DNA of 64,000 bases from Flavobacterium sp. ENC (GTDB lineage Bacteria; Bacteroidota; Bacteroidia; Flavobacteriales; Flavobacteriaceae). Below, piece by piece: positions 35,669 through 39,000 of the stretch (its first letter is position 1; the number at the start of each line of letters is the position of its first letter). Made by a program: the position numbers and the translations under genes. The notes under the pieces were generated by a model that saw only the letters and a list, made by a program, of their open reading frames with translations, was not told where the DNA came from and made no database searches. Location of the stretch: contig NZ_JAJMOY010000004.1 of the NCBI RefSeq assembly GCF_020991415.1, positions 372,001-436,000 of the forward strand, read 5' to 3'.

Positions 35669-36433
35669 TCAGAATCCTTCGAAAACACCAAGTCCAAAAA
35701 GGGCAAAATCGTATTTTACAGGGTCTTGGGCGTCCATTTCCCTTAGCTTTTGGTCTAATTCAGCCAAAGCTTTTCCATCATTTTGTTTTCGGGTCAAAAT
35801 GCCCAGCTTTCGGGCAACATTACCGGAATGAACATCTAAAGGGCAGGATAGGGCCGCTGGTGAAATAGTTTTCCAGATTCCCAGGTCAACTCCTTTTGTG
35901 TCCTGGCGTACCATCCAGCGCAGGTACATGTTAATTCTTTTGGCAGCTGAATTGTTTAGGGGATCCGAAATGTGTTTTTGAGTTCTCGGAAGGTGATCTG
36001 TTTCAAAAAAGATCTTTTTAAATTCATGAATGCTTTTCTGCAGGCTGTCATTTTCCTGGTTTTTGGCAAAAACAGCTTCAAGGCCATTGTGGTTTTTATA
36101 AATATGCTGCAACCCTTTTACAAAACCTGCGAAATCATTTCCGTTAAAAGTTCTGTGAACGAAATTTTCAAGTCTTGCCAAATCTTCATCAGAATGGGAC
36201 ATGATAAAATCGTATGGTGCATTGCCCATTAATTCCATCATGCTATGCGAGTTTTTAATAATCATTTTACGATTCCCCCAGGCAATGGTCGCGCTCAGAA
36301 AACCGGCAATTTCGATGTCTTCTTTTTGAGTAAACAAATGCGGAATCTGTACAGGATCACTTTCAATAAAATCCTGATTGTTGTATTGAATGACTTTTTC
36401 GTCTAAAAAATCCTTAAGTTCAGTTTGATTCAT
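35669..36433 (-). CDS. TIGR02757-family protein (DUF2400)
   Basis: 254 residues; the order FIESDPVQIPHLF, FLSATIAWGNRKMI, MNMYLRWMVRQD-like (INMYLRWMVRQD) and the end segment FALFGLGVFEGF are the conserved blocks of this Bacteroidota/Spirochaete family. Function is unknown. The helical pattern and the DVHSGNVARKLG segment recall HhH-GPD DNA glycosylases, but I would not assign that. Its start overlaps the end of the LIC_10190 gene by 14 bases, so the two are translationally coupled. Confidence 0.85.
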   Translation of the reverse strand: MNQTELKDFLDEKVIQYNNQDFIESDPVQIPHLFTQKEDIEIAGFLSATIAWGNRKMIIKNSHSMMELMGNAPYDFIMSHSDEDLARLENFVHRTFNGNDFAGFVKGLQHIYKNHNGLEAVFAKNQENDSLQKSIHEFKKIFFETDHLPRTQKHISDPLNNSAAKRINMYLRWMVRQDTKGVDLGIWKTISPAALSCPLDVHSGNVARKLGILTRKQNDGKALAELDQKLREMDAQDPVKYDFALFGLGVFEGF

Positions 36434-38120
36434 TTGATATGTTTTTGGCGTAAAAGCCGTCTTTTAAATTAGTGGTCCGCATTTGAGGTATTATTTTATA
36501 GTAAACCTCAAAATACTTTAGCTGGTCTTTATTGACACAAGGTAATTTTCCGTTGCCCGTTCCCCAGAAAAACGTATTGTTTAATGGAGATTGGTATTGC
36601 AGGTTGCCATTTTTTATACTTTGATAATCGAAGTCGAATTTGCTGTTTTGATGCGGAAAAATTATTTCGTTTACAGAAAAGGTACTGTTGTTTTTTAAAT
36701 GAACATTGGTGGTAAGTACACTTAAATTAAAAGGGATCATCAGGATTGTTATTAAAATACCGGTGGCGAAGTAGAGAGAAATAACAATTTTTCGTTGTGA
36801 ACGGAGTAGTGTGGCTGCAATTAGAAAAGTAAATAATAATATAGCATTCATAAAAAAACGATACTGAGGAGACGATACAAACAATACGATCATTTGAAAA
36901 AACAATATTGCGTAAAGGATCCAAAAAGGTTTTTTATTGAAAAACTTAAAGATAAAAACCGGAGTAATTACAAGAAGGACTAAAACTAATGTATTGAACA
37001 GGCCATGTAATCCCGGTCTGAAAATCCATATTTTAAAAATTTCAAAGATTCCCAAACTGTCAAATTGAGTTTCCGTTAATGAAAAAGCCGCTGTTTTGGT
37101 TTCATCATAATAAAAATGAGCCATGGCAGACGGAATCTGAAAATCGAAAGAAAATGGACTGGTTAGCGCAGGAAATAAAGGATAACCACTAATGATAGTA
37201 TTTTTTATGAGAAAAAGAACTAAAACCACAAGGCCTATGAGCACTGGTTTTGCCAATTTGGGAAGCAGAACTTTATAATCTTTGACGAATAAAACCATCG
37301 GAATTAAGACCAGAACAATAGAAGTTGTCTTTATAAATACAGCAAAGAAAACGAGTAAGGCAATGAGATTAAATGTTTCAGTATCCGGATTTTTATAGTT
37401 TTCAATGAACTTAAAAAAGAGAATCAGCGATAAAATATAAATGGGTAAATCGGGAGACGGTGTGCTGATAAAAGAAAAGAAAAAGATATTCGCCAAAGGC
37501 AACAGCCCAATAATGAGATGATTACTTTCTTTGTTTTTGAAATATGCATTAAGATGACGAAAAGCATAAATATTGCCCAATAAAAGAAAAAATCCGCTTA
37601 GGTCATTAAAATTGGGATACAAAAAAGAAAAGCTGAATACACTTTGAGCAATATGCCAGCCGCTGGTTTGTGCTAAGAAAATATGCAGATTGGCAAGTCC
37701 TTTTACAAAACCATATTCGTTTATCCATTTTATGGTTTGGATATAATAGGATTCATTATCGATTATATAGGGAATTGAGGCACATTGGGCCAAAATTAAA
37801 AGTGTAGTACTAAAAAATATTGCTTTTAAGGAAAGTGTCAGAGCCTGTAATTCCTGAAAAAGTGATTTGTAAATGAGGTGAATTTCATTTTTAAACCTAA
37901 CATAAATTCCAATATTGAGAACTAAAAGAAAGACATGAAATTCAATATTAATTCTCCCGAAAATTGCCCAGAAACCGGCAAGCAGCGTAGTGGTAAAAAG
38001 GCCAAGAATGGAGTAGATAACAAAATCTGAATTCTTTATTTCGGCTGTTTTACCGGTATAAAAACCAATATTTATGGTTGTGAAAACCATATAAATCCAG
38101 CTTAAAAGAATTAAAATCAT
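36420..38120 (-). CDS. LIC_10190-type polytopic membrane protein
   Basis: 566 residues with 12 or more predicted helices. The region after the second pair of helices has DNESYYIQTIKWINEYG (about 118-134), which recalls the acidic first loop of GT-C glycosyltransferases and PMT-like proteins; SSPQYRFFMNA near 415 recalls their later loop. So a lipid-linked-sugar glycosyltransferase is plausible but unproven. The last 80 residues form a soluble tail. One base after the ABC ATPase gene and overlapping TIGR02757, so a three-gene operon. Confidence 0.75.
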   Translation of the reverse strand: MILILLSWIYMVFTTINIGFYTGKTAEIKNSDFVIYSILGLFTTTLLAGFWAIFGRINIEFHVFLLVLNIGIYVRFKNEIHLIYKSLFQELQALTLSLKAIFFSTTLLILAQCASIPYIIDNESYYIQTIKWINEYGFVKGLANLHIFLAQTSGWHIAQSVFSFSFLYPNFNDLSGFFLLLGNIYAFRHLNAYFKNKESNHLIIGLLPLANIFFFSFISTPSPDLPIYILSLILFFKFIENYKNPDTETFNLIALLVFFAVFIKTTSIVLVLIPMVLFVKDYKVLLPKLAKPVLIGLVVLVLFLIKNTIISGYPLFPALTSPFSFDFQIPSAMAHFYYDETKTAAFSLTETQFDSLGIFEIFKIWIFRPGLHGLFNTLVLVLLVITPVFIFKFFNKKPFWILYAILFFQMIVLFVSSPQYRFFMNAILLFTFLIAATLLRSQRKIVISLYFATGILITILMIPFNLSVLTTNVHLKNNSTFSVNEIIFPHQNSKFDFDYQSIKNGNLQYQSPLNNTFFWGTGNGKLPCVNKDQLKYFEVYYKIIPQMRTTNLKDGFYAKNISNESN

Positions 38121-38121
38121 T

Positions 38122-39000
38122 TTAAGATAATATTTGTCCGTCTGACATGATAAGTTTTCGGTCGGCCATATTGGCTAACTCTTCGTTGTGAGTGACAATC
38201 ACAAAAGTCTGACCGAATTCGTCGCGAAGCTGAAAAAATAACTGGTGCAGGTTTTCAGCAGAATGGGTATCCAGGTTTCCTGAAGGTTCATCGGCAAAGA
38301 TAACATCAGGTTTATTGATCAGGGCTCTTGCAACAGCAACACGCTGCTGCTCCCCACCCGAAAGTTCGTTGGGCTTGTGATGGATACGATGTGATAGTCC
38401 TAAATATTCTAAAATCCTTTTGGCTTCTTTTTCGGTTTCTGATTTTGATTTATTCGCCATAAAAGCAGGGATACAAACATTTTCCAACGCTGTGAATTCA
38501 GGCAATAATTGGTGAAACTGAAAAATAAACCCCAAATTTAAGTTTCTGAAACCCGATAAGATTTTGTCTTGTTTACTTTTCTTCTTAAAATAATTTCTGT
38601 AAAAAACAGCTGCTAAAAGCAAAGGCAAAAATAAAACGGCAATTGTAACTTGTCCGAAAAGATCATTTTCTATTTTATTTCTGAAAAACAATAAAAAGAT
38701 TATCAATAAGAAAGTGTAAATGCTTGTTATCCAGGTAATAATTTTAAAAGTTTTCTCCTCTTTGGCATTGTCTGTTTCTACACCCTGAAGTTCTAAAATG
38801 TTCTGGCCGTTTATAGATAAGGATGATGCTGTATTTACTTCCGGTTTGTCAAGTGTGCCTAAAATTTGCAGTAATGTTGTCTTTCCGGCTCCGGATGCGC
38901 CAACAATTGAAACAATTTCTCCTTTTTTAATATGCAAATCAACTCCTTTTAAAACCTCAAGCTGATCGTAGAATTTATGTATATTTTTTGCGTGTATCAT
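38122..39000 (-). CDS. LolD-like ABC transporter ATPase with inserted transmembrane hairpin
   Basis: 292 residues. ABC core: Walker A GASGAGKT (34-41), Q-loop FIFQFHQ (158-164), signature LSGGEQQ (213-219), Walker [10 protein letters not shown] (233-241), H-loop His271. The sequence around the Q-loop ([13 protein letters not shown]) is typical of LolD/MacB-type ATPases, which are about 225-235 residues. The extra length lies between Walker A and the Q-loop, about residues 75-148, and holds two hydrophobic helices (about 88-106 and 116-134) with lysine-rich flanks. The frame is continuous. No partner permease gene is adjacent. See findings. Confidence 0.88.

Follow-up and report, generated by a model that had tools for sequence, protein, structure and literature searches.

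Within ABC transporters, no part is as conserved as the nucleotide-binding domain (NBD), whose Q-loop couples ATP to the permease. LolD and other free-standing ATPase subunits are considered to be soluble and peripheral and, to our knowledge, the rule is that membrane helices are supplied only by the permease. The closest relatives of solved structure, by sequence, of the protein described here are the LolDs of LolCDE and LolDF (TIGR02211; 2pcj, 7arh, 9rlc and others), which have the same NBD motifs and the same whole core fold. They differ from it in two respects: our protein has a two-helix hydrophobic hairpin of around 72 residues before the Q-loop, and its gene lies apart from permease genes in the loci read, including one where the protein has no insert. 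MacB has a homologous NBD with type VII architecture and, according to passages of PMC5985334, carries ATPase and membrane helices in one polypeptide, but there four helices and a periplasmic domain follow the NBD, whereas here the NBD itself contains two helices and the presumed permease is another protein. Among the titles and abstract openings of the literature matches listed, no mention was found of a free-standing ABC ATPase, LolD or other, with a membrane segment inside it, and the main text of a paper dealing with LolA/LolB in Bacteroidota does not contain the word "LolD" (PMC11885536).

The window analyzed is a stretch of 64,000 nucleotides from Flavobacterium sp. ENC, and all the features given below are on its minus strand unless indicated. 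The LolD-type ABC ATPase is encoded at 38122..39000, a frame of 292 amino acids with an ATG start and no internal stops, as defined by the open reading frame, its Pfam and NCBIfam matches and a locus shared with its orthologues. Five motifs are present within this single frame: Walker A (GASGAGKTT, residues 34–42, 38875..38901), the Q-loop with Gln161 (38518..38520), located 18 residues past the end of the insert, the ABC signature (LSGGEQQ, residues 213–219, 38344..38364), Walker B with the catalytic Glu (VIFADEP, residues 233–239, 38284..38304) and the H-loop with His271 (38188..38190). All of them are invariant across 19 aligned proteins bearing the insert (hereafter bearers), and the complete set of ABC ATPase motifs announced by the original prediction was borne out. 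The assignment as an ABC ATPase NBD is also supported by Pfam PF00005 (104 bits for a cut-off of 25), and both Pfam ABC_tran and NCBIfam LolD (TIGR02211) match the protein in two stretches split by the insert.

TIGR02211 is the top family for this protein, with 248.1 bits (first of 190 NCBIfam families, 25 of them shown, and thus ahead of MacB, FtsE and YbbA), a score below the curated equivalog cut-off of 307.75 bits, which is also missed by three Flavobacterium orthologues without the insert (263–268 bits). Because the cut-off is missed, we call the protein "LolD-type" and infer its role in lipoprotein release; judged from its sequence, it is presumably the Flavobacterium LolD, acting with LolC/E-type permeases as the ATPase for the extraction of outer-membrane lipoproteins. 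The same genome encodes a paralogue of 228 amino acids (locus L082, 1276–1962, plus strand), a stand-alone LolD/MacB-type ATPase for which MacB is preferred over LolD (277.7 vs 242.7), with no permease within the 3.4 kb seen. In the three paralogues examined out of seven, no hydrophobic segment was present (maximum 0.97).

When compared with insertless orthologues, the inserted stretch is found to cover about 72 residues (approximately 72–143, 38572..38787, with ends defined to 1–2 residues), between the strand that follows Walker A and the short helix that precedes the Q-loop, in agreement with the 60–75 residues expected. The two hydrophobic stretches originally placed at 88–106 and 116–134 were confirmed with a slight shift, the best 19-residue windows being residues 87–105 (38686..38742; Kyte-Doolittle mean of 2.39) and 114–132 (38605..38661; 2.35), which correspond to predicted membrane helices 1 and 2. 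Basic flanks had also been claimed, and in this protein only the C-terminal side is clearly basic, with a net charge of +5 in the 15 residues after the hairpin and −1 in the 15 residues before it; the charge of the loop is 0. In four bearers compared, loops of 0 or −1 and C-terminal flanks of +4 to +6 were found, with N-terminal flanks of −1, −1, +2 and +3, the value of −1 corresponding to two Flavobacterium bearers.

To a set of 171 LolD-type proteins collected from loci, that of the window included, 57 contributed with and 114 without the insert; 154 of the 171 are distinct, and 47 of these are bearers. Two segments with 19-residue means above 1.6, separated by a short loop, were detected in every one of the 47 distinct bearers (lowest mean 1.67), whereas no 19-residue stretch exceeded a mean of 1.52 in the 114 insertless proteins. 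Thus, the insert is conserved together with its hydrophobicity in several species, as the original prediction had asked to be checked. Moreover, Tyr95 and Pro126 are invariant in the 19 aligned bearers. A possible direct repeat flanking the insert was noticed by eye in the protein sequence. Separately, five insertless Flavobacteriaceae LolDs (L020, L034, L049, L056 and L060) are 7–10 residues longer than the usual 42 in the interval from Walker A to the Q-loop, so this stretch tolerates length changes.

AlphaFold2 models were made in the absence of membrane or partner. That of the window's protein (34 aligned sequences, mean pLDDT 82.9) showed an intact NBD plus two helices, 76–110 and 114–155, with pLDDT block means of 83–95 for residues 81–140, and its second helix runs on into the pre-Q-loop helix. 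For the protein of A. aquimarini (22 sequences, mean pLDDT 80.9) the helices were predicted at 69–106 and 113–139, with a break between the latter and the pre-Q-loop helix, and the hairpin was less certain (pLDDT blocks of 67–78). The core of the first model superimposes on LolD 2pcj with a Z of 28.7 and an rmsd of 1.6 Å over 215 residues, leaving 77 residues unmatched, and the LolD fold was recovered by both structural alignment and Foldseek; nevertheless, the scores of the type VII NBDs of YbbA, YtrE and MacB differed from that of 2pcj by no more than about one Z unit, and LolD cannot be told from them by its fold alone. In the model, the hairpin leaves the fold at a loop, and both the continuous frame and the intact core around the insert described in the original prediction are upheld by the absence of stops and by the predicted NBD.

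Based on hydropathy, on the flank charges of the four bearers and on these models, we infer that the two hydrophobic helices most probably form a hairpin spanning the inner membrane, whose short loop would face outwards and whose basic stalk, in the cytosol, would connect with the helix entering the Q-loop. The helices could instead pack on the NBD, on a second LolD or on LolC/E, forming a soluble or peripheral arm that does not cross the membrane, a proposal that is consistent with LolD-type NBDs functioning without any membrane segment, with the second AlphaFold2 helix running straight into the pre-Q-loop helix, and with segment 2 being mostly unfavourable on the biological scale (unfavourable in 40 of 47 bearers, around zero in one and favourable in six). 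However, segment 1 is favourable on that same scale in 44 of 47 bearers and almost free of D, E, K, R, N, Q and H (mean 0.05 of 19 positions), the mean hydropathies of the segments are around 2.4 and 2.1, and a near-neutral short loop followed by a basic C-terminal flank, as found in the four bearers, is typical of a membrane hairpin and would be unlikely in an exposed arm. Hence we consider a soluble arm quite improbable.

The genes neighbouring lolD were also studied. In the window, in F. chilense (with insert) and in F. circumlabens (without it), lolD is grouped with a DUF2400/TIGR02757 gene and a DEAD helicase gene, and the A. aquimarini locus has a TIGR02757-like gene at a greater distance. 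In the flanks of these four loci no ABC permease gene adjoining lolD was found, so that in none of them does lolD lie beside lolC/lolE or lolF as in LolCDE or LolDF. The claim that no permease gene is adjacent therefore stands for an ABC permease, but a polytopic membrane protein gene of the LIC_10190 family does adjoin (36420–38120), starting one base past the lolD stop codon. Of 80 named loci, 23 have a LIC_10190 homologue downstream of lolD, and no link with the insert was seen (4 of 18 bearers, 19 of 62 non-bearers); at the F. circumlabens locus it was not found.

The insert had also been interpreted as a fusion that might tether the ATPase independently of a permease. As an insertless orthologue occupies the same locus, what we observe is an insertion into LolD and not a fusion. 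The LolDs of F. circumlabens and F. shii, of 220–221 amino acids, share the locus and 90% and 88% protein identity, respectively, in the aligned parts, but have no comparable hydrophobic segment and carry another allele around the insertion site. Independence from a permease also lacks support, as the F. circumlabens locus is likewise devoid of a permease and two LolC/E-like permeases are present in bearers and non-bearers. In all four genomes examined (two bearers and two non-bearers), the two strongest LolC/E (TIGR02212) matches are permeases encoded by frames of 400–422 amino acids with four hydrophobic segments, although all score below the TIGR02212 curated cut-off. Between bearers and non-bearers of these four genomes they are 79.5–87.9% identical, without gain or loss of any segment. 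Beside those of the window's genome, no ATPase gene was seen in the short flanks available, one of them cut off by the end of a contig. We rejected a fusion with a new permease or a new transporter, given the insertless orthologue in the shared locus and the LolC/E-like permeases encoded elsewhere. A role in defence was also considered and rejected: the PADLOC matches were to ATPases of defence systems, and were read as generic ATPase similarity.

The distribution of the insert was analyzed at several taxonomic levels. Among the best 80 of at least 579 relatives in genome contigs, 18 were bearers: 16 Flavobacterium, A. aquimarini and one "Bacteroidia" MAG, which is among the 66 genomes of the A. 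aquimarini genus. A profile of the insert (A1) matched 52 of 398 Flavobacterium genomes (E ≤ 0.001), with 48 strong matches (E ≤ 6e-26, in open frames of 292–352 amino acids) and four weak ones; 32 of the 48 strong loci were read and encode LolD with the insert, the other 16 being assigned from the match and the length of the frame alone. In the Aquimarina genus, LolD was matched in 63 of 66 genomes (E ≤ 1e-50); five of these match over the whole bearer length and are thus bearers, and in the other 58 the match starts only at residue 143–148, as expected without the insert. In 397 family and 295 class genomes, strong A1 matches were restricted to the genome of the window and one further Flavobacterium. 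Weak matches elsewhere (E of 4e-6 to 8e-4, four in the genus, eight in the family and four in the class sample) are taken as chance hydrophobic similarity.

An insertless LolD used as query matched 376 of 393 family genomes (E ≤ 1e-60), with one match per genome among the matches listed, and none of the approximately 150 listed was split as the insert would require. A further 61 family genomes were re-examined: the two known bearers plus the 59 other genomes whose best E value was weaker than 5e-95; all were matched, the split pattern being present in the two known bearers only, and two genomes (G478 and G581) showed a partial LolD match over short frames. The remaining genomes, around 165, have matches stronger than the split ones of the bearers (4e-88 and 2e-87), which argues against an insert in them. 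In a sample of the phylum, LolD was matched in 147 of 148 genomes and, among the matches listed, was split in the same two genomes only. Rare bearers elsewhere are possible, since the family sample missed those of Aquimarina.

The insert is a real, conserved variant. The original prediction would have been contradicted by its absence from close relatives together with a sequencing or assembly error. It is indeed absent from F. circumlabens, the nearest named relative, which is the one fact in line with an assembly or frameshift artefact, but the pattern looks like a presence/absence polymorphism and not like an error. The insert is found in 53 genomes (48 of 398 and 5 of 66), some of them single-contig, and is subjected to purifying selection, as described below; given this conservation, an artefact can be practically discarded.

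To follow the history of the alleles, a tree of the LolD core was built from 154 rows leaving out the insert columns. In this weakly resolved tree the Flavobacterium bearers fall in one group of 58 rows, 42 with and 16 without the insert (SH-aLRT 87, not starred), and the Aquimarina bearers are placed among Aquimarina; six insert changes are needed, three of them forced by starred branches. The tree of the DUF2400 gene, for 78 loci, requires seven changes, five of them forced. On that of DUF2400 plus the DEAD helicase, for which 27 of 81 rows had both genes, there are four changes, three forced, and two bearers have a non-bearer as sister with a support of 100: the window's strain with F. circumlabens, and F. 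hydatis with F. shii.

Identity between sisters was then followed along the loci. In 90-base windows, the genes of our strain and F. circumlabens are 87–97% identical upstream, falling to 72–80% in the region of the insert, where a single window returns to 91%; past lolD, the LIC_10190 gene distinguishes the two loci. Between F. hydatis and F. shii, identity is 66–86% around the insert and 86–96% in most neighbouring windows, a drop that is not unique, as one upstream window falls to 69% and a few flanking ones to 76–82%. Among pairs with DUF2400 identity above 86%, which share rows, the mean shortfall in identity around the insert relative to DUF2400 was 0.103 for three discordant pairs, compared with 0.009 for 29 concordant pairs; one discordant pair (0.038) falls among the values of the concordant pairs, which reach 0.071. 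In the region of the insert, the four alleles nearest to that of F. hydatis all belong to bearers and the four nearest to that of F. shii all to non-bearers, even though the DUF2400 genes of these two species are each other's nearest; for our strain and F. circumlabens no clean split of this kind was found. Comparison of these sequences supports that alleles with and without the insert were probably exchanged by homologous recombination in the F. hydatis/F. shii pair, and is suggestive of such exchange outside it.

The selection acting on the insert was measured in 42 distinct Flavobacterium bearers (861 pairs), with 17 close pairs taken separately. Mean pN/pS over all pairs was 0.08 for the core and 0.33 for the insert, with values of 0.36 for segment 1, 0.58 for segment 2 and 0.09 for the basic C-terminal flank; in the close pairs, it was 0.03 for the core and 0.17 for the insert. 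The mean was below 1 in every part of LolD tested. The 19-residue segments differ between proteins by a mean of 8.5 (segment 1) and 11.5 (segment 2) amino acids, and yet in 41 proteins their hydropathies, 2.26 and 2.07, are above the 1.68 and 1.32 of neutral simulations with an equal number of changes. None of 200 simulated sets attained the observed mean hydropathy, an optimistic figure because rows were treated as independent. These data show that the insert is under purifying selection, constrained as a hydrophobic protein. This constraint does not by itself mean that the cell gains from it, as selection to avoid harm would look alike.

It may therefore be asked if the hairpin enters the membrane as a near-neutral passenger of a permissive surface loop, swapped by recombination and bringing no gain. 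The difference between sister species described above, the much faster evolution of the segments than the core, most marked in segment 2 over all pairs, and the likeness of the permeases in two bearer and two non-bearer genomes would fit with such a passenger. The low pN/pS in every part, above all in the basic flank, and the excess of hydrophobicity over the neutral simulations are against it, with the reservation just made regarding harm. On balance we regard a passenger as unlikely, without its weight being negligible.

Attempts to find the origin of the insert in a known domain or mobile element gave nothing. No match was found by tblastn of the insert of our protein against plasmids and phages (E ≤ 0.01), and none of 268 pattern matches of A1 in viral contigs was confirmed. 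The insert profile had two matches in the PDB at E ≤ 1, the best at 0.094, and the weak matches in Pfam were largely to membrane families, the five of the first member all being under the cut-offs.

A relationship between the hairpins of the two genera was also investigated. The Flavobacterium insert HMM scored 10.8–17.2 bits on the five Aquimarina inserts, reaching 29.8 bits on 302 control hydrophobic hairpins and 31.5 bits when the Aquimarina inserts were shuffled with their pattern kept (2000 shuffles), so by these scores their similarity does not exceed that of control hairpins. Nonetheless, both have the same insertion point and a common LQ entry. Along short stretches, Aquimarina bearers agree upstream of the insert with Flavobacterium bearers at 0.52 vs 0.04 with Aquimarina non-bearers over 3 residues, and at 0.57 vs 0.48 over 12 residues, but downstream of it the values are 0.61 vs 0.64 over 13 residues. 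The insertion point, the LQ entry, the invariant Tyr95 and Pro126 and the upstream residues count for a possible common origin of the two hairpins.

Taken together, the explanation that we favor, and consider fairly probable, is that LolD is here a subunit anchored in the membrane by a hairpin of its own, next to LolC/E, with membrane insertion, topology, contact with the permease and benefit all putative. The predicted helical hairpin, of around 72 residues and in frame, sits in the loop just before the Q-loop, making the tethering of LolD to the membrane plausible. With LolD anchored in this way beside LolC/E, the hairpin could stabilize the complex or influence how the NBD moves and, as the insert lies on the stretch entering the Q-loop, an effect of such an anchor on coupling is plausible. 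Counting against this explanation, close relatives live without the insert, so that it is dispensable for basic function. A broader proposal, which we hold only tentatively, is that a core and probably essential ABC ATPase was turned into an integral membrane protein by a hairpin in its NBD, by the Q-loop, with the allele spreading between species through recombination within lolD and either reaching a second genus or arising again at the same loop.

If true, this would be a transporter motor anchored in the bilayer that supplies helices of its own, and a conserved membrane hairpin inside a free-standing NBD, by the coupling element, would run counter to the rule by which permeases alone provide them. 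The two sister pairs, the window's strain with F. circumlabens and F. hydatis with F. shii, would offer a natural comparison of the effect of an anchored motor on lipoprotein sorting, which matters in Bacteroidota because these bacteria depend on many surface lipoproteins.
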